A stretch of DNA of 37,236 nucleotides from NCBI GenBank assembly GCA_035533075.1, contig DATLUO010000241.1:1-37236 (forward strand). The letters run 5' to 3'. The position numbers were made by a program, and so were the translations under genes. Under the pieces are notes generated by a model. The model saw only the letters and a program-made list of their open reading frames with translations, had not been told where the DNA came from and ran no database searches. Origin of the DNA: Pirellulales bacterium. GTDB taxonomy: Bacteria; Planctomycetota; Planctomycetia; Pirellulales; JAICIG01. This document shows, one piece after another, positions 1-34,104 of this stretch (within the stretch, counting starts at the first letter, position 1; the number at the start of each line of letters is the position of its first letter).

Positions 1-891
1 GCGCGGCTGATAGCCCAACTGGCCGCCGAGAAAAAAGTCGCCACGCAGATGGGCACGCAGAACCACGAGCATCCGGGCTATTTGCGGCTGGTGGAATTGA
101 TTCAGTCGGGCGCCATCGGCGCCGTGCGTGAAGTACACGTCATCACCGACCGGCCGGGCAGTTTTTGGCAACAGGGGCTCGAACGGCCGACCGACGCGCC
201 GCCGGTTCCCAAAAGCTTACACTGGGATTTGTGGCTCGGCCCGGCAGCCGAGCGGCCTTACAACCCCGCGTACGTGCCGTTCCGCTGGCGCGGCTGGTGG
301 GATTTCGGTTGCGGGGCGATCGGCGACATGGCGATTCATCTGATGGACCCGGCCTTCTGGGCGCTCAAGCTTGGCGGGCCGGTCAAGGTCACATCGAAGG
401 GCCCGCCGCCGCACGCGGAAAGCGGCCCGACCTGGATGGAATCGCACTTCGAGTTCGGCCCGCGCGACGGCCTGCCGCCTTGCCAAGTCGTTTGGTACGA
501 AGGCACAGTCAAGCCGCAGCCCGAGAGTGCCGCCTTGCTGCCGATGAACGGCTCGCTGTTCATCGGCGACGAAGGCAAGATCGCCATCGAGCACGGGCAG
601 ATGCCAAAACTGCTGCCCGAAGAAAAGTTCGCCGCCTTCGAAGGCCCCGAGCCCTCGCTGCCGCGTTCGCCCGGTCATCACCAGCAATGGATCGAAGCCT
701 GCAAGACCGGCGGACGCGCGGGGAGCAACTTCGCCTACGCCGGCCCGTTCACGGAGATCGTGCTGTTGGGCAACGTGGCTTACCGCGTCGGCAAGCCGAT
801 CACTTACGATCCCGCGTCGGTGAAAATCACCGACGTGCCCGAGGCCAACCGGTTCCTGGGCAAAGAGTATCGCAAAGGCTGGGAAGTCTGA
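1..891 (+). CDS. Gfo/Idh/MocA family oxidoreductase, 5'-truncated
   Basis: This is the C-terminal part of an NAD(P)-dependent sugar or inositol dehydrogenase-type protein. The frame is open from base 1, so the Rossmann nucleotide-binding domain and the EKP catalytic motif lie outside the window; the ATG at 49 is internal. Visible family signatures are the TQMGTQNH segment just after the missing EKP helix, the R-x-V-E-L-I-Q-S-G-A-I-G stretch, and a GCGAIGDMAIHLMDPAFW block typical of the bacterial C-terminal alpha/beta domain. The reading frame ends in TGA at 889-891. The substrate cannot be told from sequence. In planctomycetes such proteins are very numerous and many are exported, but the N-terminus needed to see a signal peptide is absent here. 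It is followed by a hairpin repeat and then the dimethylformamidase-like gene on the same strand. Confidence 0.92.
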   Translation, partial: ARLIAQLAAEKKVATQMGTQNHEHPGYLRLVELIQSGAIGAVREVHVITDRPGSFWQQGLERPTDAPPVPKSLHWDLWLGPAAERPYNPAYVPFRWRGWWDFGCGAIGDMAIHLMDPAFWALKLGGPVKVTSKGPPPHAESGPTWMESHFEFGPRDGLPPCQVVWYEGTVKPQPESAALLPMNGSLFIGDEGKIAIEHGQMPKLLPEEKFAAFEGPEPSLPRSPGHHQQWIEACKTGGRAGSNFAYAGPFTEIVLLGNVAYRVGKPITYDPASVKITDVPEANRFLGKEYRKGWEV

Positions 892-907
892 GGCGACAGC
901 GGCGAGC

Positions 908-925
908 CGGAGGCGTCAGCCTCCG
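908..925. repeat. Hairpin repeat, 7-bp stem
   Basis: CGGAGGC and GCCTCCG flank a GTCA loop, 17 bases after the oxidoreductase stop. There is no T-tract. It resembles short extragenic hairpin repeats seen in planctomycete genomes; it could help end the upstream transcript. Confidence 0.45.
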
Positions 926-1007
926 TGTCGTACCACGGCATCCATCGCAGTCGCCGTCGTGCATGCGTTCGGCGTGCAACGCGAAGGCCTATGCCGCAGA
1001 GGAATCA

Positions 1008-1031
1008 CGAAAGCGCGAAAGAACGAAAGAG
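1008..1031. repeat. Three tandem 8-base units starting CGAAAG
   Basis: CGAAAG begins at 1008, 1016 and 1024, giving an exact 8-base period. The last unit runs into the AGGAAGG ribosome-binding site (1030-1036) of the next gene, so unit number could affect the leader of that mRNA. Confidence 0.6.
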
Positions 1032-1040
1032 GAAGGCCAG

Positions 1041-2504
1041 ATGCGTTTAATGAGGTTCGCAGTCGTGACAGATCGGGTATTCATTTCCTTCGCGGTGCTG
1101 CTGGCATTGGCCGCGATGACTCGCGCCGACGAGCCGCAGCCGGTCACGCGGTCGCTGTATGTCGAAGGCTATACGGATCAGCTCAGTTATGCGCCGGGCG
1201 ACACGGTCGAGTTCCACGTCTCCGCGACGGCGCCCAAGTGGTCGCTGGAAATCTCGCGGCTGGGGGCGAAGACCGAAACGGTTTTCAAGCAGGAAAACCT
1301 AGCGGGCGCCGCCTACCCGGTTCCGGCCAATGCTTCGTCGCACGGCTGCGGCTGGCCGGCATCGTTTACGCTGAAGATTCCTTCGGATTGGCGCAGCGGC
1401 TATTACGACGCAGTGCTGCGCGTAGCCGATGGCGGCGGCGAGTTCACCGAGCGCAACCGCCGCACGGCCGAGTCACGGCTGTTTTTCGTCGTTCGTTCGG
1501 CTCAGCCGGGAAAGAATTCCAAGATTCTGTTGCAATTGGCCACGAACACGTACAACGCCTACAACAATTGGGGCGGGCATAGCCTGTACGCCTTTCACGC
1601 CCGCAACAAGCTGCAAGGCACGCGAGTTTCGTTCGATCGCCCGCTGGCCGGGCAGTTTCGCACCTGGGAGTTGCCGTTCGTGGCCTGGGCCGAGCGTAAC
1701 GGCATTGCCCTCGAATACGCGGTCAACTCCGATCTCGAATTTCGCCCCGAGTTGCTCAAGCAGTATAAGCTGGTGCTCAGCGTCGGCCACGATGAATATT
1801 GGTCCACGCCGATGCGCGATCATCTGGAAGCTTATATCGGCGCGGGCGGCAACGTGGCCTTCTTCAGCGGCAACACTTGCTGCTGGCAGGTGCGCAGCGA
1901 GGCCGAGGGCCGGCAGCTTGTCAGTTACAAGCAGGCGTTCAATCTCGATCCGCTGTTTCCCAGCGGCAAGCGGCGGCTGTTGGCCACGCTTTGGAGCCAT
2001 CACCTCGTAGCCCGGCCGGAGAACCAACTGACCGGCGTGGGCTTTCTGCACGGCGGCTATCATCGCAGCCACGGCCAATACATGGACGGCGCGGCGGCGT
2101 TTACCGTGCATCGCCCCGAGCATTGGGTCTTCGCCGGCTCGGGGCTGAAGGCCGGCGAAAGCTTCGGCGGCAAGAACACGATCGTGGGCTACGAGTGCGA
2201 CGGCTGCGAGTTCGAGTTGCAAGACGGCTTGCCGACCCCGACGCATCGCGACGGCACGCCCGAGACGTTCGCGATTCTCGGCACATGCCCTGCCCGCTGG
2301 CATCCCGATGACGCGCTGTGGTACGACCGCTTTCCACGCGACAAAACGGGCGCCCCGGCCGAAGGCCACGCCGTGATGGGCGTCTACACGCGCGGCGGCT
2401 CCGTTTTTACCGTTGGCACGACCGACTGGGCACACGGCCTGGCCGGCGACGACCCGGCCGTCGAGCGGATCACGCGGAACGTGCTCGAGCGGTTTTCGAA
2501 GTAG
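1041..2504 (+). CDS. Exported N,N-dimethylformamidase-beta-like protein
   Basis: A 487-aa protein. The ATG at 1041 was chosen because AGGAAGG lies 4 bases upstream and because translation from there begins with a signal peptide: basic MRLMR, hydrophobic core about residues 12-26, likely cleavage after TRA (29). The frame stays open far upstream, but that part overlaps the oxidoreductase gene and is not protein-like. A beta-rich N-terminal region (about 35-150) is followed by a C-terminal domain with TYNAYNNWGGHSLY (170-183), SVGHDEYWS (248-255) and a glycine-rich GGNVAFFSGNTCCWQVR stretch (269-285). These match the large-subunit C-terminal domain of N,N-dimethylformamidase, an iron-dependent amidase with a glutamine-amidotransferase-like fold. 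Many proteins with this domain are uncharacterised, so amidase activity is only a family-based guess and the substrate is unknown. Confidence 0.85.
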   Translation: MRLMRFAVVTDRVFISFAVLLALAAMTRADEPQPVTRSLYVEGYTDQLSYAPGDTVEFHVSATAPKWSLEISRLGAKTETVFKQENLAGAAYPVPANASSHGCGWPASFTLKIPSDWRSGYYDAVLRVADGGGEFTERNRRTAESRLFFVVRSAQPGKNSKILLQLATNTYNAYNNWGGHSLYAFHARNKLQGTRVSFDRPLAGQFRTWELPFVAWAERNGIALEYAVNSDLEFRPELLKQYKLVLSVGHDEYWSTPMRDHLEAYIGAGGNVAFFSGNTCCWQVRSEAEGRQLVSYKQAFNLDPLFPSGKRRLLATLWSHHLVARPENQLTGVGFLHGGYHRSHGQYMDGAAAFTVHRPEHWVFAGSGLKAGESFGGKNTIVGYECDGCEFELQDGLPTPTHRDGTPETFAILGTCPARWHPDDALWYDRFPRDKTGAPAEGHAVMGVYTRGGSVFTVGTTDWAHGLAGDDPAVERITRNVLERFSK

Positions 2505-2689
2505 CTCTTGGCATCCGAAGCGTCAGCCACTGAAATGCCGGAGTATTTCCTGCTTCTGCGGTGATGGGACATCTCGCCGAAGCCTCCGATCTCGGTCGCT
2601 GCAAGATTCCGGCCTTCTTGACGCGCGATCGGCTATATACTGCTGTGTTAATGCGTGAACCGTTTCAGGCAACATTACTGAGGCCAACA

Positions 2690-3106
2690 ATGGTTCGCCA
2701 AAGGTCCACGCTCAAGCAGTTTTCGATTGTCGCTACGGCTCTTTGCCTCACCTTGGGTACGTTCGGCATCTGCGGAATATCATGGAGTCCACGAATATCC
2801 ATTGCGCCTGCAAAGGTGGGGCAGCGGATAGCGGTTCGGGTTCAGTATCCTCCTTGGCACGGTCGCAGGTTCGCGCTTTGGATATGTCCTAGCGGGACCT
2901 ATGATTGGTGGGGAGATGGCGAGCGAGACACGGGAGTCGCGGGCCTCGCAACGCGCAAATGGCACGGCGGCTATTATTCCGAAGCGCAGTTGGGCCCGGT
3001 CCTCGCGCCGGGTGATTATGACGTCTATCTGACGTATGAAATTGCCCCGCCAATTGATGCTGAAGATCATACTCCGGCGTACGGTAAGATAACCGTGGCG
3101 GAGTGA
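2690..3106 (+). CDS. Small secreted or anchored protein of unknown function
   Basis: A 138-aa protein that I do not recognise. The frame extends upstream to 2561, but the ATG at 2690 has GAGG at 2680-2683 (6-base spacing) and gives an N-terminal hydrophobic segment (about residues 10-30, ATALCLTLGTFGICG), as expected for export or anchoring. The ATG at 2651 is a weaker alternative with no ribosome-binding site. The rest looks like a single beta-sandwich: RISIAPAKVGQRIAVRVQYPP, a Trp-rich TYDWWGDGERD turn, and GDYDVYLTYEIAPP near the end. A possible -10 element (TATACT, 2636-2641) lies upstream with no good -35. It ends 26 bases before a convergent small gene. No functional assignment is justified. 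Confidence 0.6.
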   Translation: MVRQRSTLKQFSIVATALCLTLGTFGICGISWSPRISIAPAKVGQRIAVRVQYPPWHGRRFALWICPSGTYDWWGDGERDTGVAGLATRKWHGGYYSEAQLGPVLAPGDYDVYLTYEIAPPIDAEDHTPAYGKITVAE

Positions 3107-3132
3107 GTCCTGTCCGTTCAGGATTGCCGGCG

Positions 3133-3333
3133 CTAAGCGATTAAGGCCGCGTTTTTTCGCTGCTTGTCCAGGCATGCCGCCGAATTCCGAAGACATTGCT
3201 CCAATCGCGCAAGCAATCTTCGTTGCGTCGCTTCCAACTTGCGGACCATGATCAGCAGCGGTTCGTCCGGCGGCGACGCAGGCAGGAACTCGAAGCTGCC
3301 TTGCCGATTCGCCCCAAGTGCTTTTTTGTCCAT
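3133..3333 (-). CDS. Small coiled-coil protein, 66 aa (paralog of the 51-aa ORF upstream)
   Basis: Begins at ATG 3333 with AAGG nine bases upstream; a TTG three codons earlier is less likely. A flexible N-terminal half containing SPPDEP is followed by a charged, heptad-like helix, KLEATQRRLLARLEQCLR, then NSAACLDKQRK. The helix aligns without gaps with the neighbouring 51-aa product: both contain TQRRLL, then L, R, S and a C-L-x-K ending, about 12 identities in 24 positions. The pair is transcribed 3651 to 3133. No known family is recognised. Duplication of the helix supports it as genuinely coding despite its size. Confidence 0.55.
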   Translation of the reverse strand: MDKKALGANRQGSFEFLPASPPDEPLLIMVRKLEATQRRLLARLEQCLRNSAACLDKQRKNAALIA

Positions 3334-3495
3334 GAGTTGCAACCTTAAGTGGGAGGCGTTCTCGAGTTGACGTTCGCCGCAGATTCGCGTTCACTTCAAG
3401 TAACGTCGAAAATGGCCCGAGGCGCGCGCAGCAGCGGATGCGACTGGGGTTGTTCGACGGGCGAGACGCCGGGCGCCGGATTGCGCCGCGGGGCT

Positions 3496-3651
3496 TCATT
3501 GCCGCGGCAATTTCGCCTTTTTCAGGCACTGCTCGGAGCTGCGAATGCTCTTGTCGAGTTGTTGCAAGAGCCGGCGTTGGGTCTTTTTGAGTTCCAGCGT
3601 TTTGGCACGGAGAGAATCGGCTTCGACGGCTTTTTTGCGATTGGGCGACAT
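3496..3651 (-). CDS. Micro-ORF, 51-aa basic coiled-coil protein
   Basis: Begins at ATG 3651, with AGGA five bases upstream, and ends in TGA. The product starts MSPNRKKAVEADSLRAKTLE, then has KKTQRRLLQQLDKSIR and ends SSEQCLKKAKLPRQ. It is very basic and almost entirely helical in character. It aligns with the C-terminal helix of the 66-aa product encoded 162 bases downstream on the same strand, so the two are probably tandem duplicates. Function unknown; a small nucleic-acid-binding or partner-binding helix is possible but speculative. An AT-rich block upstream (about 3775-3815) could hold the promoter. Confidence 0.5.
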   Translation of the reverse strand: MSPNRKKAVEADSLRAKTLELKKTQRRLLQQLDKSIRSSEQCLKKAKLPRQ

Positions 3652-4018
3652 CGAAATCCTGCATGAGCGGTCCACTCAAGTCGACGACATCCTCAGCGTT
3701 CAATCGAATAAAGCATCCGCAGCCCGACATGCTATCCGCCATTCTTTCCAATTCGGTTTCCGGTAAGCGCCTGTCATAATAATTGCAATTAAGAATCTTT
3801 TATATATCCAGTTTCTCGGCGGCGCGGTCAGTTAGCGGAAGAGAGCGTCGTTCCAACTACAAATTACCTGTCGTGGAGGCGTCCCGCCTGTGACGAAGCA
3901 GGCGTCCCGCCCGCACCACAACTCAGGACGCCGCCCGGCAATGCTCGATTTGTCGCGTGCCGCTGGCTAGGATGAAGTGCATCGCGCCGCAGGCGCATCA
4001 ACGGTACAGAGGTCGGTC
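3652..4018. other. Divergent intergenic region with AT-rich block and a direct repeat
   Basis: This 367-base gap separates the micro-ORF (-) from the GntR gene (+). About 3775-3815 is strikingly AT-rich for this genome and is the best place for promoters, although I see no clean -35/-10 pair. At 3877-3888 and 3900-3911 the 12-base word AGGCGTCCCGCC occurs twice; each copy holds a GGCG/CGCC mini-hairpin. AGAGG at 4008-4012 is the ribosome-binding site of the GntR gene. Confidence 0.5.
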
Positions 4019-4771
4019 ATGTCCCGCGTCGATCGCGTGTCGGAAGTCGTCCAGGCTTTGGAAGATAAGATCCTAAGCGGCGGTCTCAATCCCGGCGATC
4101 CGCTGCCCTCGGAGCGAGAGATCAGCACGCAACTGGGGGTCAGCCGCACCGTCGTTCGCGAGGCGATCGGCCGGTTGGCCGGCCTGGGCCTGGTTCGCAG
4201 CATCCAAGGTTCGGGCACGCGGGTCGCCGCGCCGAGCGGCCGGCAGATTTCGGTCGGCTATCAGCGTTTGCTGCGCTGGTCGGATTGCCGGTTGGAAGAC
4301 CTAGCCGCCGTGCGGTTGCCTTTGGAGACGGCCATCGCGGCGTCGGCGGCGATTCATCGCACCGAGGTTCAGCTCGCTTCGCTCGAAGAGACGCAGCAGA
4401 CTTTGGGAAACCCGGCCAAATCGCTCAAAGCGCACCTCAAGGCCGACCTTGATTTTCACGCGATTCTCGCCGAAGCCACCGGCAACGCGATGTTCCACCT
4501 GGTGCTGGCGCCGATTCAGGAATTGCTCATCGAGAGCCGGCGGCAGACGCTGGGCCGCCACGGCGCGGCCCTCGCCCATCGTCACCACGCCGACATTCTG
4601 GCCGCCGTCGTAGCCGGCGATGCGCGGCTCGCCAGCCAGGCCATGCGAGAGCATATCGAAGCGAACTTTCAGCACTTGCGTGCAGCGGCGACGAGCGTCG
4701 ATGCGGTCCTGCTCGGCGATCAGCCGCAGGGTGGCGATACCATTCAGCGGCGCGTCAAGGAATTTCCGTAG
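4019..4771 (+). CDS. FadR-type GntR family transcriptional regulator
   Basis: A 250-aa DNA-binding regulator. The ATG at 4019 is preceded by AGAGG with 6-base spacing; the in-frame GTG at 3977 lacks such a site. The N-terminal winged helix-turn-helix (about 5-72) shows the GntR hallmark PLPSEREISTQLGVSRTVVR followed by the wing GLVRSIQGSGTRV. The C-terminal helical FCD effector domain (about 90-220) carries the expected metal-site residues, D143 and H147 in the ADLDFH segment, then H190 and H212. Family members usually sense an organic acid, sugar acid or similar metabolite and repress adjacent catabolic genes. No obvious target operon is adjacent: the upstream neighbours are the micro-ORFs, transcribed away from it. 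The ligand is unknown. Confidence 0.92.
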   Translation: MSRVDRVSEVVQALEDKILSGGLNPGDPLPSEREISTQLGVSRTVVREAIGRLAGLGLVRSIQGSGTRVAAPSGRQISVGYQRLLRWSDCRLEDLAAVRLPLETAIAASAAIHRTEVQLASLEETQQTLGNPAKSLKAHLKADLDFHAILAEATGNAMFHLVLAPIQELLIESRRQTLGRHGAALAHRHHADILAAVVAGDARLASQAMREHIEANFQHLRAAATSVDAVLLGDQPQGGDTIQRRVKEFP

Positions 4772-4813
4772 GGAACGCCCTGCTATGCGGTTCAGCCGCA
4801 AGGCGGCGCAGAA

Positions 4814-4990
4814 TCATCCTGTACCGCCCGTCGAGAAGGTTTCGCGAACCCAGGCTCGGAATGAGCGGATCCACGCCGTCTCGTCGGTCGTCGCTCGCTC
4901 TTCGAGGAAGCGATTCAGTCCCGCTATGCGCAATTCCAGCAAATTCCTGCTGCGTTCGGATTCAGCGTACTGTCCTTCGGCCAGCCATCG
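4814..4990 (-). pseudogene. Protein-like open frame without a start, probable gene remnant
   Basis: On the minus strand, 58 codons run open to TGA at 4814-4816. The translation looks like real protein: EGQYAESERSRNLLELRIAG, then LNRFLEERATTDETAWIRSF, then RAWVRETFSTGGTG. There is no ATG or GTG after the in-frame stop immediately upstream. A second frame just upstream reads DVHIEIDDGWPKDS and then stops, so one frameshifted gene could explain both. I do not recognise the family. Confidence 0.35.
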
Positions 4991-5008
4991 TCAATCTCGA
5001 TATGAACA

Positions 5009-5041
5009 TCCCCTCGGCCGCAACGGCGCGCGGCGAGGGGA
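5009..5041 (-). terminator. Strong hairpin downstream of the IscA-type gene
   Basis: TCCCCTCG pairs with CGAGGGGA (8 bp), with an inner CCGC/GCGG stem around an 8-base loop and one bulged base. It begins about 33 bases after the stop codon. No U-tract follows, so it may be a 3'-protecting structure rather than a classic intrinsic terminator. Confidence 0.5.
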
Positions 5042-5074
5042 TCGGTGGGTTTCGCGTTTTCTCGCGGCGGCCGA

Positions 5075-5407
5075 TCAGGCCTGGAACGAACTGCCGCAGC
5101 CGCAGCTCTTGACCGCGTTGGGGTTGTCGAAGGTGAAGCCGCGCTTCTCCAGGCCTTCGTAGAAGTCGACCGTCGTGCCGTCGAGATACAGCGCGCTCTT
5201 CTTGTCGACGACCACCGTCACGCCGTGATAGTCGTACTTGCTGTCGACCTTTTCATCGTAGGTCTTGTCGAAGCCGAGGCTGTATTGAAAGCCGCTGCAG
5301 CCGCCGCCCGCCACGCCGACGCGCAGGACCGTGTCCTCGTCGAACTTCTGTTCCTGCATGATCCGCTTGACTTCGTTGGCGGCCTTTTCGCTCAATGCCA
5401 CTGCCAT
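5075..5407 (-). CDS. IscA/ErpA/HesB-family iron-sulfur cluster carrier
   Basis: A 110-aa A-type carrier, full family length, which accepts or inserts Fe-S clusters in the cytoplasm. The three conserved cysteines are present: C37 in GGGCSGFQY, and C102 and C104 in the C-terminal SCGCGSSF. Start ATG at 5407; AGGAG lies 12 bases upstream, a rather long spacing. It follows the cysteine desulfurase gene on the same strand, 129 bases downstream, which fits a shared role in cluster assembly. A perfect -10 hexamer in that gap suggests it can also be transcribed alone. No scaffold (IscU/NifU) gene is next to it. Whether it is IscA, ErpA or SufA by function cannot be told from sequence. Confidence 0.94.
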
Positions 5408-5477
5408 AGTGCTCTACCACTCCTGAAAAAGGGTGCGTGCTTGCTAAGCCCGGATTTTGACAACCAAGTATGCCTAA

Positions 5478-5483
5478 ATTATA
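5478..5483 (-). promoter_or_regulatory. Likely -10 element of the IscA-type gene
   Basis: TATAAT on the minus strand, about 70 bases before the start codon; only weak -35 matches 17-18 bases upstream. Confidence 0.5.
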
Positions 5484-5536
5484 CAACTCGCTGGAAAAAG
5501 GGAAGCCAGCCGGTCCCGAAACCGCGAAAAAACGCC

Positions 5537-6730
5537 TCAGGCCAGGCTGCTCAGCTTGCGCAGCCGGACGACCGCCTGGCTGACCGCCTCGATGGCAAAC
5601 TCGACGTCGTCGGCCGTATTGAACCGGCCCAAGCCGAAGCGCAAGCTGGCCCGCGTCAGATCTTCGCTAAGACCCAAGGCCCGCAGCACATGGCTGGGCT
5701 CCGGGTCGGCCGACGTGCAGGCGCTGCCGGAGCTGACCGCCAGCCGCTTCATGCTCATCATCAAGGCCTCGCCGTCGACGTGGGCGAAACTGAGGTTCAA
5801 ATTGCCGGGCAAGCGCCGGCTGCGGTCGGAAAGGGCCGGCCCGTTGAGCGACACTCCTTCGAGGGCTTTCAACAACCCGGCGCAAAGCCGATCGCGCAGC
5901 TCCGCCAGCCGCGTCGCCTCTGCAGGCAGTTCCGCGAGGCAAAGTTCCAGCGCCTTGGCGAAGCCCGCGATGCCCGGCACGTTGAGCGTGCCGCTGCGCA
6001 GCCCCCCTTCCTGGCCGCCGCCGTCGATCTGCGGCTGCAAACGGACGGGCGGACTGCGGCGCCGGACGTACAACGCCCCGACCCCCTTGGGGCCGTATAT
6101 CTTGTGGGCCGAGAAGCTCATCAAATCGATCTGCAATTCCGTCACGTCGACGGGCAGTTTTCCGACGGCTTGCGTGGCGTCGCAGTGCAATAGTACTCCC
6201 CGCTGGCGGCAGATGGCGCCGATTTCGGCCAGCGGCTGGATGACGCCGATCTCGTTGTTGGCCAGCATCACCGAGACCAGCGCGGTGTCGTCGCGGATGG
6301 CGGCGGCCACTCGCCCCGTGTCGACAAGCCCCGCGCAAGCTTCGCCGACCGGCGCCACCGGCAAGAGCGTGACTTCGAAGCCGCGGCGGCCGAGACGCTC
6401 CAGCGGATCGAGCACGGCTTTGTGCTCGGTCGCGAGGCTGATGAAATGATCGCCTTTGCGCTTGCCGCGTTCGGCGACGCCGCGCAACGCGAGATTGTTG
6501 CTCTCGGTCGCGCCGCTGGTGAACACGATCTCGCGCGGCTCGGCGCCGATGGCCGCGGCGATCGACTGCCGCGACTCGTCGACGGCGTCCTTGGCCTCCC
6601 AGCCCCAGGCATGGCTCACGCTGCGGGCGTTGCCGTAGCGCTGGCTGAAAAACGGCAGCATCGCCTCGACCACGCGCGGATCGACGCGCGTGGTGGCGTG
6701 GTTGTCCATGTAAACGCGATCGGCGGGCAT
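5537..6730 (-). CDS. Cysteine desulfurase, NifS/IscS type
   Basis: A 397-aa PLP enzyme that removes sulfur from L-cysteine as an enzyme-bound persulfide for Fe-S cluster and thio-cofactor synthesis. Class V aminotransferase motifs are all present: SGATESNN (72-79), TEHKAVLD with cofactor-stacking H103, [14 protein letters not shown] (182-195), and [10 protein letters not shown] with the PLP lysine K210. The active-site loop [20 protein letters not shown] holds the catalytic C338. The loop is the longer, mobile kind of IscS/NifS (group I) enzymes rather than SufS. Start ATG 6730 gives [14 protein letters not shown], the normal N-terminus. It lies upstream of the A-type carrier gene in the same direction. 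A short GCCT/AGGC stem followed by six Ts spans its stop codon and may end some transcripts. Its leader can form alternative hairpins. Confidence 0.96.
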
Positions 6731-6771
6731 CGAGAATGCGCGAACGAACAGAGCTTTTTAAGAGCGGTCAA

Positions 6772-6799
6772 CGCCGCCAACGCGGCGGCGGTTGCCGCC
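6772..6799 (-). promoter_or_regulatory. Two mutually exclusive hairpins in the cysteine desulfurase leader
   Basis: 6772-6790 forms CGCCGCC/GGCGGCG (7 bp, 5-base loop). 6787-6799 forms GGCGG/CCGCC (5 bp, 3-base loop). They share bases 6787-6790 and so cannot coexist. Both lie between the -10 and the start codon. Regulatory meaning is inferred only. Confidence 0.3.
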
Positions 6800-6805
6800 A
6801 TTATA
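6800..6805 (-). promoter_or_regulatory. Likely -10 element of the cysteine desulfurase gene
   Basis: TATAAT on the minus strand, 70 bases before the start codon at 6730. No convincing -35 is seen. Confidence 0.45.
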
Positions 6806-6843
6806 TCAGTCCGGCGAACTGTCCGCTTCGAGCGAGTTGTTTT

Positions 6844-6876
6844 GCGCAGCCGCTCGAAGGCGGCTGGGCGCTTTTT
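6844..6876 (+). terminator. Intrinsic terminator-like hairpin with T-tract
   Basis: GCGC-AGCCGC pairs with GCGGCT-(GG bulge)-GCGC around TCGAAG, followed directly by five Ts. This is a good intrinsic terminator for plus-strand transcription, yet no plus-strand gene ends here. It sits between two divergent promoters and could stop antisense transcription out of the desulfurase gene. Confidence 0.5.
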
Positions 6877-6944
6877 AAGTTGGCGGGCGGTTAATTCCCA
6901 GTTTTTCACAATTTACCAGTAAGTTCGTCTCTTTCCTCGCCCGA

Positions 6945-6950
6945 TATAAT
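6945..6950 (+). promoter_or_regulatory. Likely -10 element of the 124-aa protein gene
   Basis: TATAAT 41 bases before the GTG start; the region 17 bases upstream has only a weak -35. Confidence 0.45.
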
Positions 6951-6991
6951 CCCAATGGAACTCCTCATGACGGGGCTGCCGGAGCAGGGAA

Positions 6992-7366
6992 GTGGTCGCA
7001 CTTGTCCTGTACCTGGCGTGCGGCTCGACGCCAGAGTGCTACGTTGAAGAGCACGTCGACACGATCGCCGTGGTTCACGTCAAAGACGGCGCCGAGCTCG
7101 TCTTCTTCTTCGACTTCGTCCAGGGCGAGTGGGTTTGCCTCGATCATCGTTGGCTGGCGGGCGACATGCTGCCGGGCCGCTTGGGCGAACAGTGGACGCT
7201 CGCCTGGCACGACGACGGCGATTCGTGCTGGCGGCTGATACTCGCCGATCACTGGTACGAAACTTGGACGGACGAGAGCCCGTTGGCGGCGCAGCACAAC
7301 CGTCCATGGTTCGCTCGCTTGTTGGCGCCCGGGCTGAAACAGCCCTGTAAACCCGTCCCGCCCTGA
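6992..7366 (+). CDS. Conserved-looking protein of unknown function, 124 aa
   Basis: The GTG at 6992 is preceded by GGAG with 7-base spacing, and an in-frame TGA at 6968-6970 rules out a much longer product. The protein begins MVALVLYLACGSTPECYVEEHVD and is rich in Trp and acidic residues, for example GEWVCLDHRWLAGDMLPG and WRLILADHWYETWTDESPLAAQ. It ends in a proline-rich tail. The N-terminal hydrophobic stretch is too short for a clear membrane span. It reads like a compact soluble beta-rich protein. I do not recognise a family, and neighbours give no hint beyond a response regulator downstream. Confidence 0.65.
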   Translation: MVALVLYLACGSTPECYVEEHVDTIAVVHVKDGAELVFFFDFVQGEWVCLDHRWLAGDMLPGRLGEQWTLAWHDDGDSCWRLILADHWYETWTDESPLAAQHNRPWFARLLAPGLKQPCKPVPP

Positions 7367-7600
7367 GCCCGTAGCGTCCGACGCGTCTTGAACCCGCCGC
7401 GTTTTCTCGCAGCGAGCCCTCCCGTCTCTCCGCCGAGCGTGCAAATCGCGTACGGAAAAAAACCGTCCGTTTGCGCAACCGCTACCCCCCTCCCCACGCA
7501 AAAGAGTGCTGTACAGACCCAGCGATCCATGCCAAACTAGGTTATTGGGAGAGTCGATCGACGGACCCGATGGTAGAGCGTTTAAAACGAGAGACGGTAA

Positions 7601-8047
7601 ATGTGTAGCCAGACGATTGGTCGCCCGATGGAGATACTGTTGGTCGAAGATGGCCTGGTCGATGCTCGCGTGACGATCGCGGCGCTCCGCAAGGGCCTGA
7701 TTCAGCACCGCTTGACGCTGATCCGCGATGGCATCGAGGCGATGGAATTTCTTCGCCGAGAGGGTAAGTTTGCCAGGGCGCCCCGTCCTGACCTGATTTT
7801 GCTCGATCTCTGCCTGCCCAAGAAAGACGGCCGCGAGGTGCTGGCCGAGGTCAAGGCCGACGACTCGTTGCGATCCATTCCGGTCGTCGTGATGACCAAT
7901 TCGGACGACGAAGAAGACCGCCTGCAAAGCGAATTGCTCGGCATCGATTGCTTCATCACCAAGCCGGTCGACACCGACAAGTTCTTGACGGTCGTGCGAC
8001 AGCTCAGGCGGTATCTGCACGCCGACCTGATTCTGCCCTCGGTTTGA
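7601..8047 (+). CDS. Stand-alone response regulator receiver protein (Rcp1-like)
   Basis: A 148-aa single-domain CheY-like receiver with no output domain. Numbering from ATG 7601: acidic pocket E16-D17 in LLVEDG, phosphoacceptor D69 in LILLDLCLPKKDG, switch T99 in VVVMTNSDDEED, and conserved K121 in FITKPVD. The long loop before the phosphoacceptor strand, FLRREGKFARAPRPDLILLDL, is typical of the Rcp1 group, whose members pair with phytochrome-like or hybrid histidine kinases. The second ATG at 7628 (MEILLVEDG) is also possible; neither has a strong ribosome-binding site. No histidine kinase is encoded nearby, so the partner is unknown. It probably acts through protein-protein contact in the cytoplasm. 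Confidence 0.93.
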   Translation: MCSQTIGRPMEILLVEDGLVDARVTIAALRKGLIQHRLTLIRDGIEAMEFLRREGKFARAPRPDLILLDLCLPKKDGREVLAEVKADDSLRSIPVVVMTNSDDEEDRLQSELLGIDCFITKPVDTDKFLTVVRQLRRYLHADLILPSV

Positions 8048-8503
8048 CGCGGCCCGGAATTCTTGCGCAATCGGCGCGTGGCAATCCCGCCGCCGCGCGC
8101 GGGAGGAAAACCTTGCCGATTGCGAGGCGTGCGCCGCGCTAGCGCGTTCGACTCGCCCTTGGCCTCTGCGAAAAAAGTCCGCCGACGCGTCGCGGCCCGA
8201 TCGCCGAAAAGCCGAACTATCCTCCAGGCTTTTTCCCTCACGCGCGGTCCGTCCGCCGGACCCGGCGGGAATTGCCGAAGGAAACGGACAGGGAAAATCG
8301 GCTCAGTGGAACGTCCCAGCGCGATCTTCGGCCGCAACCCATTGAGCCACGGATGAAACACAGATGGATCACGGATGAAAAACAGAGTCGGAAAAACCGT
8401 GTCCGATCCGTGTTCGATCCGTGTTCGATCCGTGGCTCGCCCCCGCCAAAATCGCCGCTTGAATCTTCGCGAGACGCGGAGAAATAGAACGTTTGTAGGA
8501 CGG
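8048..8503. other. 456-base gene-free region with hairpins
   Basis: No convincing coding frame is seen between the response regulator and the PLD gene. It contains a GGTCCG/CGGACC hairpin at 8246-8262 and the large CACGGAT-type inverted repeat at 8344-8438. Confidence 0.5.
8344..8438. repeat. Imperfect inverted repeat built of CACGGAT / ATCCGTG words
   Basis: The ends GAGCCACGGAT (8344-8354) and ATCCGTGGCTC (8428-8438) are perfect 11-base inverted repeats. The left side holds further GGATCACGGATGAAA-type words. The right side is a tandem array of the 11-base unit CGATCCGTGTT starting at 8404, 8415 and 8426 (last partial). The whole can fold into one long hairpin. Confidence 0.65.
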
Positions 8504-9886
8504 ATGTGGTTCATGCCGCGTTGGTCTCTCGGGGCTTGGTCGTTTGGGGCGCTGGCAATCGTCGTCTCGCTGGCGCGAAGCGCGCCGGCCGACGCGTTTC
8601 GACTACTGGCGTCCGACCACGAGGCGGCCCAGGCCCGCGTCGACCTCATCGACCAGGCGACCGTCTCGATCGAGACGTCGTATTATTGGATCGGCAACGA
8701 CCGGATCGGGGCGATGTTCCTCTCGCGGCTCGAAGCGGCCGCCCGGCGCGGCGTGCGAGTGCGGTTGGTCGTCGACGCCGAACACAACGACGTGCCCCTG
8801 GAAGTCGAGGCCCTGCTGATTCGCTCGGGCGTCGAGATCAGGGAATATCACCCGGTCGGTCTGCGTCATCCGCTGTGGATCAACTACCGCATGCACGACA
8901 AGACGCTGGTCGTCGACGGCAAGCATCTGATCGTCGGCAGCCGCAATATTCGCGAACCGCATTTCGGCTTGGCCGAGATCAACTTCGTCGATCGCGACGC
9001 CTATCTGCGCGGCCCGACGGCCCGGCAGGTGCAAAGGTACTTCGAATGCCTGTGGACCTGCGCCGAAGTTGCGCCGCCCGATCTCGGTCGCCAGCCGCAC
9101 CGGCGACGCGAGCGCAGCTCGCTCGATTTGACCAAAGTCGGCGTCCGCCAGGTCACCGGCCCGCTCTCGCCGCAGGAGGCGGCCCGACTTTGGCTCGAGG
9201 CGGCTAGCGACGTTGCCGTCGGCTGCCAGCCGATTCTCGGCGAGACGGAAACCGATTGGTCGGCCGCCGGCACGCGCCAGACGGAGTGCCTGCGGTTCGT
9301 CTTCGATCCGTGCGGGCGCAAGGGACATCCGCGCGGCATCAGCCGGCAACTGATCGACCTCATCGACGGCGCCCGCTCGAGCATCCTGTTCGAAACGCCC
9401 TACTTCCTGATGTCGAGCCGCTTGAAACGCGCGCTGGCCGGCGCCATCGCCCGCGGCGTGCAAGTGCGGGTATTGACCAATTCGCTGGAAACGACCGATC
9501 ACCGCACGCTCACGGCCGGCTTTACCAACCAGAAACAATGCTTTCTGCTGCCGCGCGGCGTCGACGTCTGGGAGTTGGCCGGCGACGATCGTCACTTGCA
9601 CGCCAAGTCGGCCGTCTTCGACGGCTCGATCGCCTTCGTCGGTTCATACAATTTCGATCCTCGCGCGGAGTATCTCAACACCGAAACGGGCGTCATCATC
9701 AATGCCCCGGAGATCGCCGCCTGGGTCGAGTCCTCGATCCGCGACCACATGCGGGGCAGTTATCACATCGGCTCGGACGGCCGCGATCGGGCCGAGGGCA
9801 GGCGCTTTCCGGGCGCCTCGGCCGGCCAGATCTTGAACATGGAGCCGTTGCGATTCGTCGCCCCGCTGGTGCGGCGGTGTCTGTAG
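8504..9886 (+). CDS. Exported phospholipase D-fold (cardiolipin synthase-like) protein
   Basis: A 460-aa protein with two PLD-like domains. The first HKD motif is MHDKTLVVDG (H131, K133) followed by GSRNI; the second is HLHAKSAVFDG (H366, K368) followed by GSYNFDPR. Each fits HxKx4D, so the two halves can form one active site through a phospho-histidine intermediate. The N-terminus, about residues 8-30 with SAPADA, looks like a signal peptide, suggesting action in the periplasm or at the membrane. Start ATG 8504 has AGGA three bases upstream; ATG 8513 is nearly as good. The open frame back to 8375 crosses the repeat and is not protein-like. Likely reactions are phospholipid hydrolysis or phosphatidyl transfer; which one cannot be decided. 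There is no lipid gene next to it. Confidence 0.88.
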   Translation: MWFMPRWSLGAWSFGALAIVVSLARSAPADAFRLLASDHEAAQARVDLIDQATVSIETSYYWIGNDRIGAMFLSRLEAAARRGVRVRLVVDAEHNDVPLEVEALLIRSGVEIREYHPVGLRHPLWINYRMHDKTLVVDGKHLIVGSRNIREPHFGLAEINFVDRDAYLRGPTARQVQRYFECLWTCAEVAPPDLGRQPHRRRERSSLDLTKVGVRQVTGPLSPQEAARLWLEAASDVAVGCQPILGETETDWSAAGTRQTECLRFVFDPCGRKGHPRGISRQLIDLIDGARSSILFETPYFLMSSRLKRALAGAIARGVQVRVLTNSLETTDHRTLTAGFTNQKQCFLLPRGVDVWELAGDDRHLHAKSAVFDGSIAFVGSYNFDPRAEYLNTETGVIINAPEIAAWVESSIRDHMRGSYHIGSDGRDRAEGRRFPGASAGQILNMEPLRFVAPLVRRCL

Positions 9887-10112
9887 ACGCCGGGGATTAC
9901 CGCCTCGGTGGTCGTTCGGCCAATCCAAGGGAGATTGCTCGGCTTCTGCAGTCTTCTTTCCGCGCTGCGGTTTACCACATTCACGGCATCGGTCGTGCTT
10001 TTGACGACTTGCGTTTTTCCGCAAGCCCGACCGAAAGGCGCCGTGTTTTTGAGCAATCGCTGCGAATTTGCCGAGGCTTTCGACAAACGCTCGCCCGACC
10101 GGCTTGCGAGGC

Positions 10113-10241
10113 CTATTCGCCCGAAAGTACGTGCCGGAACAACGGCATCCAAAGCAGACTGCCAATCGCAATACCTGCGACGAGCCACAAAGCGACTTGA
10201 AAGAACACGTTCGGTTGACGTAAGTCCTGATCCTCATTCAT
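10113..10241 (-). CDS. Small single-span membrane protein, 42 aa (putative)
   Basis: ATG 10241 to TAG 10113. A polar start (MNEDQDLRQPN) precedes one strong hydrophobic helix (about residues 12-36, VFFQVALWLVAGIAIGSLLW), then a short RHVLSGE tail. The frame is open upstream to 10421, but that part is arginine-rich and not protein-like. The ribosome-binding site is weak (GGAG 13 bases upstream). Function unknown. The flanking stretches 9887-10112 and 10242-10508 contain no other gene I can support. Confidence 0.4.
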   Translation of the reverse strand: MNEDQDLRQPNVFFQVALWLVAGIAIGSLLWMPLFRHVLSGE

Positions 10242-10459
10242 CGCTGCCACGTTGCTCCATTTCTGAGTTACCGCCTGCTTTCGTTGTTGAATCCCCGGCG
10301 ACGGCCTGTGGCGCCGAACTGCGTCACTCCATCGGTCCATCGTCCATGCAATAGGTAGCAATTCGCGTGCCAAGCATCTGCCGACAGCAAGGGCGACCGA
10401 GCCGACGCGCCCGGTTGGCATAGCGGCTTACGTCAACACGATACCCGGGCCGATCAACA

Positions 10460-10479
10460 AACCGGGTTAGGAGCCGGTT
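10460..10479 (-). terminator. Hairpin after the DUF1552 gene
   Basis: AACCGG/CCGGTT (6 bp) around an 8-base loop, 29 bases past the stop codon, followed by a short T-rich run. Possible terminator of the two-gene operon. Confidence 0.35.
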
Positions 10480-10508
10480 AGGTTTCTGCGCGCTTTGCCG
10501 CGAAGAGC

Positions 10509-11855
10509 TTACACGCGCGAGAAGATCGAATCGCCGACGACGCCCGTGCTGTCGGAAAACGACTCTTGCTCGATGCCCAGCGAGTGCAGGATGCTGAGAA
10601 ACACGTTCGACATCCGCGTTTCGTCGCGGCGCCAGTAGACGCCGTGCTTGAGCCCCATATTCGCCCCGCCGGCGATCAGGGTGGGAAGATTCCTCGGGTT
10701 GTGCGTGGTGCTGGCGCCGCTGCCGAAGAGCACGATGCTGTTGTCCAGCACCGGGCCGCTCTTATCGCGGAACTCTTGCAGTCGCGCGAAGAAGTACGCC
10801 AGTTGCTCGCTCAGGAACAAGTCGTACTTGGCGAAATTCAACTGGCCGTCCTTGTCCTCGGCGTGCGACAGGCTGTGGTGCGTGCGGCTCAGGCCGAGCT
10901 TCAGCGGGAAAGTATCGCTGATGCCCATGCCGTCTTCGCGATTCAGCATGAACGCCACGCTGCGCGTGATGTCGGCGTCGAAGGCCAAGGCGATCAAATC
11001 GAACATGTTGCGGTAATACTCGCGCGGTTCGCCCTCGGGAGAGGCGTCGAGATTGAGGTGCGAGTAGTCCTGGGCTTTCAGCGGGATGTCGATCCATTTC
11101 TCCGAAGCGGTCAGCCGCGATTCGACTTCGTCGAGCGAGGTCAGGTACTGATCCATCTTCTCGCGGTCGGAGTTGCCCAGCCGCTTATCGAGCGAGCGAG
11201 CGCTTTCGAGCACGGCGTCGACCAGGCGGATGCGCCGCTGGAGTTGATCGCGCCGCGATTCGAGCGACGCCCGGTCGCCGCGAAACAGGCGATCGAACAC
11301 CCGGCGGGGACTGTTCTCGGCCGGGATCGGCTTGCCTTCCAGGCTGTACGAAATCGTGCCGGTGCGCGACAGAAAGCCTGTGCCGGCGTCGATCGACAAC
11401 ACCAGCGAAGGCTGGCGGCAGTATTGCTTGGTGTAGAGCGCGACGGCCTGGTCGAGCGCCACCGAGTTGTAAGCGCCCGGCTTGGGATTGTGCAGCGGGG
11501 CGCCGGTGAGCCACATGTCGGAGCAGACGTGCGGGTCGGCCTTGGGACCGCTCGGGTGGTACAGCCCGCCCAGGAAGCTCAATTGATTGCGAAACGGCGC
11601 CAGCGGTTCGGTCGATTTGCCGAACACGAACTGGCCGTTCTGCTCGGCCCTCGGGAACCAGCTCCAGTCGTCGATCGCGTGCTGCGGCCTCGGCAGCGAC
11701 ATGCCGTTGGCCGTGTAGAGGGCGCAGAATCGCCGGGGAATCTGCCCTGCAACCTCGTCGCCCATCGCGTCCAACACGGGCAGCGCCAACGAAACGCCGG
11801 CCAAGCCTTTGAGCACGGAACGACGATCGAGCTTCGCGGGTGCAGGCACAAGCAT
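10509..11855 (-). CDS. DUF1552 family Tat-exported protein
   Basis: A 448-aa protein of the DUF1552 family, common in planctomycetes and related bacteria; no biochemical role is established. The N-terminus [19 protein letters not shown] (twin arginines R11-R12) is a Tat signal, so the protein is probably exported folded. The C-terminal half has [20 protein letters not shown], typical of this family and of related DUF1501 sulfatase-like proteins. It lies 36 bases downstream of the di-haem DUF1592-group gene in the same direction, the usual pairing. For the ATG at 11855 the GAGG site is only one base away. The GTG two codons later (11849) has AGGA at 6-base spacing and may be the true start. 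Export together with a haem protein suggests a shared envelope process. Confidence 0.93.
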
Positions 11856-11891
11856 TCCTCGTTAATAAAGATATCGGCAGCGTGCAGACCG

Positions 11892-14800
11892 CTACTTCTC
11901 CAGGAACAACTCGCTTTGAACGACGAACCGGATGAGGTCTTGCAGGCGGTAACCGGCGGGCTTTGATTTTAGCCCCTCTTCCTTGAGGAATTCAAGTTCC
12001 TGGTAGCTCAGGCTGCGGCCCGCGGCGTAGCCGGCCAGGTGCTTGAGAAAGCTGAACGCCACCTGATCGAGCCGCTCTTCGGCCAGGTACTCGCGCAAGC
12101 CGCGGGCGTCGGCGATCTCCGTGCCGTCGGGCAGCGTCGATCGGGCGTCGACCGCTTGCCCGCTCTTGAACAGCCCGCCGGCGTCGAACTGCTCCAACGG
12201 CAGCCCCCAGGGGTCGATGCCTGAATGACACTTGGCGCAGCCTTCCTGATTACGATGCCGTTCGAGCTTCTGGCGGAGCGTGAGCTGCGCGCCGTCGTCC
12301 TGCGGCAGAACGGGCACGTTGGGCGGCGGATCGTCGGGCGGCTCGGCGATGATCTTCCGCGCCAGCCAGGCGCCGCGTTTGACGGGGTTCGCTTCCCGGC
12401 CGTCCGACAGTCCCGCGAGAATTCCGGCCTGGGCCAGCACGCCGCCCAGGTTCGCATGCTCGTGTTTGATCTCCACGAACTCGAAGCCGCGCTCGGTGCG
12501 ATCGGCCAGGCCGTAGTAGCTGGCGACGACCTCGTCGGCCACGATGAAGTCGGATTGCACGAGGTTTTTAAGCGGGAGATTGTGACGCACGAGATGCGCG
12601 AGAAACTCCACCGGCTCTTGCCGCAAGTGCGTCTTGGCGTGGCGGGTCAGCCTCGGATAACGCTGGCGATCGGTCTCGACGACGTCGAGCTTGTCGAGGT
12701 TCAGCCACTGCGAAGCGAACTCGCGGGCGAACTGGTCGAACCGCGGGTCCTGGATCATGCGTTCGGTCTCGGCGTCGAGCGAATCGTGCAACCGCCCGGC
12801 TGCGGCCAGCGACAGCAGCCGCTCGTCGGGCGTCGTGTTCCAGAGGAAATAAGAGAGTTTCGAGGCCAACTCGAACGGGTCGAGAGGCTCTGCCTCGGGG
12901 CTCTTGCTGTTTTCGATCAGGAACAGGAATTGCGGTGAAGTCAGCGCGACCAGCAGCGCGTCTTTGACGCTTTGCCGGAATTCGTTCGTCCGCGCGAACG
13001 AATCTTGCCACACGGCGAACAGCGCCGCTTGTTCCTGCTCTGAGACTGGCCGGCGGAAGGCCCGCGTGGCGAACGAACGCAGGATTTCGCCCGCGTAGAC
13101 GGCCGGCTCGGATTTGTGTTCCGAGTCAATAAAGATGTTGCCGTGCGTGGCCGGCGGCCAGGCGTCATAGAACGGCCCTTCGAAGTCCACGGAACGGACG
13201 AGCAACCGCGGCATGTCGCGGCCGTCGGTGTATTCGCTACGGACGCCGATTTCGCGGATGCCGGCCAGGTAGTTGACGTTGTCTTTCTCCACGTCGGGGC
13301 TGGGAAAGTTGGCGATGGCGCCTTCGAACACGTAGTCCTTCAGCTCCGAGGACGCCGCCGTTTGCGCATCGCCGACCGGCGCGAGCGTGCTGCCGCAATC
13401 GCGCCGCAAGCCGAGATGAACGCCGATTCGCGGCGAGCGGTTTTCGAAGATCGCGAAGCGTCGGGCCAGCTCGTGCGTTTCCTCCAAGGGCGTGAAGAGG
13501 ATGCGCAACGGCGCCGGCTTGCCGCCGTATTCAGCGGCCACAGCCAGCGGACCGGCCGGTAATCGGACGAGCAGAAACGCCGGTTGATGAAGCGTTCCGG
13601 AAAAGCGCCGCTGGCCCAGGCTGAGCGTCAGGACCTGCGGCTTCATGGAGGCACGGGCGCCCTCGCCCGTGACTGCCGCGCCGGGCGGGGGCGCCCGGCC
13701 CTCCATTGATTCGGCGCCGTTCGTCTTCAATTGCGCATCGACCTGATAGATGCCCGCCGATTCGATCGCGACCGTTTGCGGCTGCGTGAGATCTTCGACC
13801 GCGACAGCCCCGGGCGACGACGCATCGCTGCTGGCGGCGCCGGGATCGAGCAGCAGGCCGTCGTCATATTTGGCGGCCTTGATCGTCACGCGAAACCGGC
13901 CCAGATCGGGCAGCTCGCGGAGCGAGATTTTGAAGTTGGCCTTCGGCCCGTAAGTGCTGTCGACCTGAAACAACTCGTCGCTGGGAATCGCCGGCCGCAG
14001 CAACAGGCCCTCGGGAACCGTCTGATACGCCAGGCCTTTGGGATAGCCGTCCGAGCCGCGCATGCAGGCGAAGACTGCGTGATAAATGCTGTCGTACTCG
14101 CGCCAGCCGCGCACCGTGTCGTTGCCCTGATAGCCTTCGATGAAGCGGTACTTGCTTCGCATCACGAACGGCTGGTACGCGAACGGCTTCGTGGGTTGCA
14201 ACTGAGCGACTTTGAAGTCGTCGTTCTTGAGCAGATGGCTGAGGGCGCCGAGGATCAACTTGTCGGGACACGGCTCGGGGTTGATTTTCTCCCCCAGATC
14301 CATGCGGAAGTTTTGAATCTCGGGCGGCGAGGCCTCGTCGACGATCGAGCGATCAAGGGCCTTCTCCGCGATGCTGAAATAAGCTTCGACCAACAACGGC
14401 GAGAGCAACATCGTCCGGCCGTTATTCAAGAACCCTTCTTTGGAGACCGCGTCGGGCGGCAGCACTTCGGTCAAATCGTCTTCGATTGCCAAAAGATCTC
14501 GCAGCGTGTTGCGATATTGCGAGACGGTTAGCCGCCGCACGGAACCGTTCTTGGCCTGCTTGCGCGAGCGGACCATGACCAGCGCGTCGTCGATCCAGCC
14601 CGCGAGCAGTTGCCGCTCGTCGGCGGTCGGCTGGGGTTCGTCCTCGGGCGGCATCGTTTCGTCGGTCAGTTGCTCGCGAATCGCTTTCCAAAGGAACGCT
14701 CGCCGGCCTTCCAGCGAGCCGTCCAGGTGATCGACGCGAATGCCCGACTTCATCTTGTCGAGGTTGTGGCAGCGCAGGCAGTGTTTTTGGATCAGCGGCT

Positions 14801-14981
14801 GGATTTGCGTTTGAAACCGCTGCTGGATGGCGGCGACCTGGCCGGCGGCAGCTTCTTCGGCCGCGGGTGCGTTTTGGGCCAGCGTGTTTGCGATCTGAAA
14901 GATAAAGAGCAGGTTCGCCGTCGCCAGCACGGCAAAAGCGAAACGGAACTTCGACGTTGAATGCGAATGTGCGTGGGCCAT
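11892..14981 (-). CDS. DUF1587/1595/1592/1588/1585 multidomain exported di-haem cytochrome-like protein
   Basis: A 1029-aa protein from ATG 14981. A longer frame reaches 15134, but the putative -10 at 15040-15045 and the signal sequence right after MAHAHSHS favour the shorter start. The signal core is about 13-34, with cleavage near NTLAQ. Domains in order: N-terminal cytochrome-like region with haem motif CLRCH (C68, C71, H72); DUF1587 about 150-215 ([16 protein letters not shown]); a beta-rich insert about 300-560; DUF1595 about 630-690 ([15 protein letters not shown]); DUF1592 about 700-828 ([19 protein letters not shown]); DUF1588 about 855-945 with a second haem motif CAKCH (C915, C918, H919) and [13 protein letters not shown]; and DUF1585 to the end. 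The two motifs imply covalent c-type haems and a periplasmic redox role, but no substrate is known. Residues 426-446 are encoded by a repeat element. First gene of an operon with DUF1552. Confidence 0.94.
13645..13706. repeat. 62-base three-way-junction repeat inside the DUF1592-group gene
   Basis: Terminal inverted repeats ATGGAGG/CCTCCAT enclose two GC hairpins: CCGGGCG/CGCCCGG (7 bp, 4-base loop) and CACGGGCG/CGCCCGTG (8 bp, 4-base loop). It is translated in frame as a Gly/Ala/Pro-rich stretch ([20 protein letters not shown]) between otherwise ordinary beta-rich sequence. It looks like an extragenic-type repeat that has entered a coding region. Confidence 0.7.
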
Positions 14982-15039
14982 GTTCTCTGCGATTTTTAGT
15001 TCGTCGGCCGTAAAAGGCGGGCTTTGCTCAGGGGGGTCC

Positions 15040-15045
15040 ATTGTA
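15040..15045 (-). promoter_or_regulatory. Possible -10 element of the DUF1592-DUF1552 operon
   Basis: TACAAT on the minus strand, 59 bases before the chosen start codon; the -35 is poor. It overlaps the start of the hydrolase remnant. Confidence 0.35.
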
Positions 15046-15300
15046 CGACAAAAACGCCCCGTCGAGTAATCTCTGCGCCGTTGCAAAATCCAGTTGCTGC
15101 TCGTCGGCGAAGACGATTTCGCTTGCTCCGTCATGCGTGCGGACGCCGAATGTTATCGCGTCGAAGGCCGCACGGTCGAATTCGTTTCCATTCCCGGCTG
15201 GGGCCACCAATGGTCGCCGGCGCACAACTCGCGAATTTGGAGTTTTCTTTCGCAACATTCGCTGGTCGGCGATCGATCCCGATTGCTCGACGCGAACTGA
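15041..15300 (+). pseudogene. C-terminal remnant of an alpha/beta-hydrolase-like gene, frameshifted
   Basis: From 15070 to TGA at 15298-15300 the plus strand reads [19 protein letters not shown], then EGRTVEFVSIPGWGHQWSPA, then SRIWSFLSQH. This is the usual end of an alpha/beta hydrolase: the Asp-loop (VGEDDF), the catalytic His (PGWGHQW) and a final helix. There is no start codon with a ribosome-binding site and a TAA stands at 15067-15069. In the neighbouring frame, 15041-15070 reads [10 protein letters not shown] and joins smoothly if one -1 shift is allowed at about 15070. The catalytic Ser region is missing, so it cannot work as an enzyme. The DUF1592 promoter now occupies its 5' end. 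A chance open frame is the alternative. Confidence 0.45.
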
Positions 15301-15308
15301 ATTCCGGG

Positions 15309-15899: not shown

Positions 15900-15942
15900 C
15901 CACCGCTTCCTCTCGCCCCGTCAATTATTTATCGAGTGCTAC

Positions 15943-15948
15943 ATTATA
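15943..15948 (-). promoter_or_regulatory. Likely -10 element of the TetR gene
   Basis: TATAAT on the minus strand, 44 bases before the start codon, in an AT-rich patch; no good -35. Confidence 0.45.
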
Positions 15949-15987
15949 CAGCTTGACAGGCGAACCGTGATGGCGACCGAAACCGAA

Positions 15988-16008
15988 AGCGGCGATTCGA
16001 ACGCCGCT
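15988..16008. repeat. Hairpin in the TetR/DUF420-like divergent spacer
   Basis: AGCGGCG and CGCCGCT (7 bp) around ATTCGAA, itself nearly palindromic. Could be a regulator site or an extragenic repeat. Confidence 0.4.
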
Positions 16009-16180
16009 GGATCCGCGCCCGACAAGCCGCATGGTTATCGAAAACGACCGTCAAACTCGCCTGCCAAGAAAATCGCTTTTTCGTTAGACTAGCCTACGGG
16101 CGGTTTGAAGCGCCGCAACCAAGCTGGCGGCTCGCACGGCTCGATCCCTGCTTCCCGTACTTTTGTAACCGTCGCCCTTT

Positions 16181-16663: not shown

Positions 16664-16725
16664 CAACCTGCCGGCTTTGCTTTCACCAACCGCCGACAGC
16701 CGGGGGTGGCTGGCGGCAGAGCCCA

Positions 16726-16755: not shown

Positions 16756-16817
16756 CGGCCCAGATCCAGAAGCTCGCTATCTGGACATGCAGCAATTCAC
16801 GGCTGCCAAAGCGCTTG

Positions 16818-18374
<1,557 letters not shown>

Positions 18375-18408
18375 CGGTCGATGGTCCTGTATTCGAGTGC
18401 TTGATTTG

Positions 18409-33585: not shown

Positions 33586-33741
33586 ATGTCGCCCAATCGC
33601 AAAAAAGCCGTCGAAGCCGATTCTCTCCGTGCCAAAACGCTGGAACTCAAAAAGACCCAACGCCGGCTCTTGCAACAACTCGACAAGAGCATTCGCAGCT
33701 CCGAGCAGTGCCTGAAAAAGGCGAAATTGCCGCGGCAATGA
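33586..33741 (+). CDS. 51-aa coiled-coil micro-ORF (mirror copy)
   Basis: Identical to 3496-3651; AGGA at 33577-33580, five bases before the ATG. Confidence 0.48.
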   Translation: MSPNRKKAVEADSLRAKTLELKKTQRRLLQQLDKSIRSSEQCLKKAKLPRQ

Positions 33742-33903: not shown

Positions 33904-34104
33904 ATGGACAAAAAAGCACTTGGGGCGAATCGGCAAGGCAGCTTCGAGTTCCTGCCTGCGTCGCCGCCGGACGAACCGCTGCTGATCATGGTCCGCAAGT
34001 TGGAAGCGACGCAACGAAGATTGCTTGCGCGATTGGAGCAATGTCTTCGGAATTCGGCGGCATGCCTGGACAAGCAGCGAAAAAACGCGGCCTTAATCGC
34101 TTAG
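33904..34104 (+). CDS. 66-aa coiled-coil protein (mirror copy)
   Basis: Identical to 3133-3333; AAGG at 33891-33894, nine bases before the ATG. Paralog of the 51-aa product just upstream. Confidence 0.53.
   Translation: MDKKALGANRQGSFEFLPASPPDEPLLIMVRKLEATQRRLLARLEQCLRNSAACLDKQRKNAALIA

Follow-up and report, generated by a model that had tools for sequence, protein, structure and literature searches.

Two small open reading frames (ORFs) lie close together on the minus strand of a contig from a Pirellulales bacterium, and we read them as a pair of related microprotein genes. ORF A encodes 66 aa and ORF B 51 aa, and the pair is best explained by a translated small gene that underwent tandem duplication long ago. 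We put the probability that A and B are paralogous, translated genes at roughly 0.55. The argument for paralogy leans most on position: the two are reciprocal best matches in an 8.5-Mb genome and lie 162 bp apart on the same strand. If this reading is correct, the tandem duplication provides internal coding evidence for microproteins that have no homologues, in a phylum where many genes lack annotation.

Genomic setting of the A/B pair

The window, meaning the whole stretch of DNA analysed here (37,236 bases), is the entire contig C241. The preliminary description of this DNA reported minus-strand ORFs of 51 and 66 aa separated by 162 bases, and both are present, with A downstream of B (Table 1). 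They occupy an intergenic stretch of ~870 bp, flanked by a small orphan ORF and a regulator of the GntR/FCD type. Other neighbours are a HesB-type iron-sulphur protein, a cysteine desulfurase-like aminotransferase and a 2-isopropylmalate synthase, together with proteins of the DMFA2_C, PLD-domain, DUF1552 and PSCyt1/PSD cytochrome types. Gene order runs from a DMFA2-like gene through the orphan ORF, A/B, the GntR regulator and the HesB gene to the cysteine desulfurase. The DUF1552 and PSD/PSCyt domains agree with a planctomycete host.

Table 1 Coordinates of ORFs A and B, their aligned blocks, flanking genes and mirror copies in the window.
Feature	Position	Strand	Remarks
Small orphan ORF	2561 or 2690 to 3106	+	Neighbour on A side
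ORF A, 66 aa	3133..3333	-	Low-confidence N-terminal ~23 residues, then long predicted helix 24-65
A block aligning with B, 28 codons	3157..3240	-	A residues 32-59; alignment
Ribosome-binding-like site TAAGG	3343..3347	-	Spacing 9 nt to ATG of A
ORF B, 51 aa	3496..3651	-	One predicted helix 3-46, net charge +10
B block aligning with A, 28 codons	3511..3594	-	B residues 20-47; alignment
Ribosome-binding-like site AGGA	3657..3660	-	Spacing 5 nt to ATG of B
GntR/FCD regulator	3977-4771	+	Neighbour on B side; family library match
Mirror copy of B	33586..33741	+	Other arm; regarded as assembly artefact
Mirror copy of A	33904..34104	+	Other arm; regarded as assembly artefact

Several features of the surrounding sequence were recorded alongside the pair. 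GC content is lower over 3001-4000. The orphan ORF, read from 2690, begins with a hydrophobic segment resembling a signal peptide, is poorly adapted in its codon use (p 0.72) and has a weak relative on contig C132 of genome G001 (29%, E 5.9e-6). The cysteine desulfurase-like gene (5537-6730) has a second, 79% identical copy elsewhere in the bacterium's genome, on contig C175, with different neighbours in the stretch that was read. The opening codons of the PLD-domain ORF (8375-9886) contain 3.5 copies of an 11-bp tandem repeat (8397-8434), and this gene probably begins farther downstream than the ORF does.

The window is an exact palindrome: its 37,236 bases match their reverse complement with 0 mismatches. 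The preliminary description did not mention this property, by which the A/B pair is mirrored at 33586-34104. The centre of the palindrome (18618/18619) lies within a hairpin-repeat array at 18580-18660 of the type GTAGGTCAGGCTTTCCAGCCTGAC. Fragments of the repeat turn up on roughly a dozen further contigs of this assembly, a distribution that points to a family of interspersed hairpin repeats. The palindrome is very probably an assembly fold-back at this hairpin repeat, and for that reason the second A/B pair is not counted as a second locus. When a contig is a perfect palindrome, a locus on it can appear twice in the assembly, which inflates its apparent copy number; because all of C241 is such a palindrome, claims about paralogues or copy number that draw on both arms are unsafe.

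Protein-level similarity between A and B

The best local alignment of A and B is ungapped and spans 28 residues, 13 of them identical (L, TQRRLL, L, R, S, CL and K), with a raw score of 67. This reproduces the gapless match described previously, in which TQRRLL was followed by L, R, S and C-L-x-K with about half of the positions identical. The similarity is specific to one frame: among 36 frame pairs tested over both ORFs, A(-0) with B(-0) scores 67 and the other 35 score at most 32. DNA identity in the aligned block is 51%, and different codons encode 9 of the 13 shared residues, which places the resemblance at the protein level.

Score 67 was reached by none of 5000 residue shuffles of B, by 1 of 20,000 shuffles that keep the hydrophobic/polar pattern, and by 0.16% of 5000 shuffles that keep finer residue classes. 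Protein similarity between these neighbours is beyond chance, and weaker under the fine residue-class shuffles. Without correction, high-scoring spurious ORFs rich in Arg, Ala and Pro push the pair down to 17th among 10,064 non-overlapping ORF pairs in one arm; with composition correction, applied to the 400 lowest-E pairs only, it ranks first (p 6.5e-6). In a search of the bacterium's own 8.5-Mb genome, the best non-self match of A is B (E 0.066) and that of B is A (E 0.031). By our arithmetic, an equally strong match within 500 bp on the same strand has a chance expectation of ~4e-6.

Between A and B, pS is 0.86 and pN 0.38, with dS saturated, and mismatches in the block number 16, 8 and 17 of 28 at the three codon positions. 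Choosing the alignment by its protein similarity biases these indices, and they are no proof of selection.

Similarity of this kind could also arise if both ORFs are translated and two short charged helices have converged, with no duplication involved. We consider this unlikely, but it is a live rival because A and B each score 54 against a coiled coil within a long open frame of genome G150 (locus L049), and because nine peptides, all from loci fetched for resembling A, score at least 67 against A. The small share of fine-class shuffles that attain the A/B score leaves some room for convergence as well, and a third family member that could confirm descent was not found. Nonetheless, the coiled-coil pattern does not demand the gapless succession of TQRRLL, R-x-S and C-L-x-K, and convergence would have to account for reciprocal best matches that are also close neighbours.

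Codon use and other gene signals

Codon use was scored with a model built from 4431 codons of 11 neighbouring genes, against a null of random ORFs with the region's dinucleotide make-up. B (p 0.0003) and A (p 0.005) are the top two of nine ORFs tested, the seven others in the stretch ranging from p 0.02 to 0.82. When only synonymous choices are scored, B retains p 0.0003 and A is weak (p 0.0375). Host-like codon use is thus strong for B and modest for A, and both ORFs carry a coding signal in the same frame that is independent of their similarity to each other.

The preliminary description argued that duplication implies translation and selection. Paralogy and translation are supported by the frame-specific protein similarity of neighbours together with host-like codons, whereas support for selection does not extend beyond the pair itself. 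The same description found the ribosome-binding sites plausible. A site of this type does precede each ORF, but it is weak evidence because similar matches are common in this sequence: among 11 further genes of the window that were scored (one of them taken from start 1043 instead of 1041), 4 have a match of at least 4 nt, compared with 426 of 3000 random places. On the minus strand, 2500-4100 contains a single sigma-70-like site, located at 4089-4062 and ~400 bp before B, and shuffled sequence yields just as many. Promoter-like and terminator-like counts in this region are not above shuffle level.

These modest signals bear on the possibility that neither ORF is a gene, and that both are chance open frames with a chance similarity. 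An intergenic stretch like this one should contain ORFs of 50-70 codons by chance alone. A number of overlapping ORFs of comparable length are present, e.g., 3349-3666 (+), and one of them, 3196-3348 (+), which is antisense to A, has a codon p of 0.02. The shuffle-level promoter and terminator counts and the failure to find homologues of A or B point the same way. Against this stand the frame specificity of the similarity, the codon scores and the first composition-corrected rank among ORF pairs, and we regard a pair of chance frames as quite unlikely.

We find it very improbable that A and B are what is left, in decay, of a mobile element or of a coiled-coil gene that was formerly longer. The poor codon adaptation of the adjacent ORF at 2690-3106 and the locally lower GC would suit such decay. 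Each ORF, however, has its own start, stop and ribosome-binding-like site, no element genes were recognised nearby, and matches to long coiled-coil frames are weak and mutually inconsistent.

Predicted structure

Helices had been claimed for both products, and AlphaFold2 indeed predicts one long helix for each in single-chain models. The helix of B has a mean pLDDT of 92; that of A reaches pLDDT 96-98 over residues 31-60 and follows an N-terminus of low confidence. The net charge of A is +5, half that of B. Hydrophobic positions common to the two aligned blocks (offsets 1, 8, 9, 12, 16, 22 and 23) run along one face, and the models and these positions together describe a continuous amphipathic helix in both ORFs. 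Such helices may form coiled coils.

Search for relatives

A search with A against 97 genomes gave no convincing homologue. A profile of A and B was run against order, class and phylum samples of 396, 397 and 392 genomes, own genome included. It matched 5 of 395 other genomes in the order sample at E <= 0.01 (~4 expected by chance) and 2 of 391 in the phylum sample at E <= 0.003 (~1 expected). In the class sample it matched 19 of 396 at E <= 0.02 where ~8 were expected; because the excess lies mostly in long open frames, we read it as ordinary coiled coils. A single class-sample match, in genome G471 (locus L064), falls in a short stop-free frame. B alone matched 2 of 395 other genomes of the order sample at E <= 0.02, with ~8 expected. 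Pattern scans of genome_contigs and viral_contigs yielded no convincing homologue, and tblastn of plasmids with B gave no match. The preliminary description had looked to homologues as a check on the pair and named their absence as one of two joint conditions that would refute it; no orthologue of A or B was found in the order, class and phylum samples or in the pattern scans, and on this condition the outcome goes against the description.

That description had also recognised no family, and this holds for Pfam, NCBIfam, PHROGs and PADLOC, none of which has a match to A or B. A sequence search of the PDB returned matches at chance level (best E 0.24), a structure search with the helix of B returned no match, and a search of positions 1-18618 for RNA families was likewise without a match. 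We found no publication on the pair in a literature search, which does not prove its absence from print.

Forty-seven loci were compared with both A and B. These are the fetched non-self matches from the A search and the A+B profile searches, in which further matches exist. Four of the 47 (L046, L049, L063 and L064) reach z >= 4 for both A and B. They were rejected as homologues, none being a small stop-free ORF clear of any longer overlapping frame. In L046 an in-frame stop interrupts the match, and L064, the best small-ORF candidate, runs antisense to an open frame of 607 aa and matches no Pfam family. Locus L045 was also set aside, because a 323-aa frame of the same strand overlaps it.

Relatives of the neighbouring cysteine desulfurase, GntR regulator and orphan ORF in genome G001 are spread over three contigs, with no A/B-like ORF observed in their vicinity. 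A genome_contigs scan with the GntR neighbour gave three loci, all alphaproteobacterial by record titles.

Since relatives were not found elsewhere, A and B are probably lineage-restricted small genes. This restriction must be interpreted with caution because it rests on thin sampling, the family being represented by one other genome in the searched sample.

Proposed explanation

We hypothesize that A and B are real small genes of a kind easily overlooked in annotation, which would have arisen by an old tandem duplication and been kept in one planctomycete lineage. The two would be transcribed together, B first, and each product would be a single basic amphipathic helix. The shared hydrophobic stripe could allow a short coiled coil, whether by self-pairing, by pairing of A with B or with a partner protein; pairing through this stripe is a tentative proposal drawn from the predicted helices. 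The divergent tails might then give each copy its own target. A bolder version, which we think rather improbable, is that a lineage-specific microprotein gene duplicated and diverged into a hetero-oligomeric helix pair with a new cellular role (e.g., as a basic nucleic-acid- or membrane-binding coiled coil) and without counterpart outside one planctomycete family. As it stands, A/B is an ORFan microprotein pair and not a new kind of system.

Comparison with known systems

Type II toxin-antitoxin pairs are usually tightly coupled genes. The A/B pair resembles such modules in consisting of two adjacent small genes on one strand, and a toxin-antitoxin or defence pair might be suspected on that ground. 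It differs from them in its wide gap and in having two products that are alike, and neither product matches the libraries searched, including PADLOC for defence genes. We consider this identity highly improbable.

Coiled-coil segments of large planctomycete proteins, such as the 953-aa stop-to-stop frame of L049, share helix words of the type K-L-E-x-T-Q-x-x-L-L-x-x-L with the pair. The L049 coiled coil, however, is part of a long open frame and does not share the R-x-S...C-L-x-K end of A and B.

The pair also resembles unannotated, lineage-restricted small ORFan genes such as those of global smORF catalogues, which are likewise shorter than 100 aa, lack a domain and detected relatives, and have their own start and ribosome-binding-like site. 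Unlike single small ORFans, A and B form a diverged tandem pair, and the pair supplies internal coding evidence that single ORFans lack.
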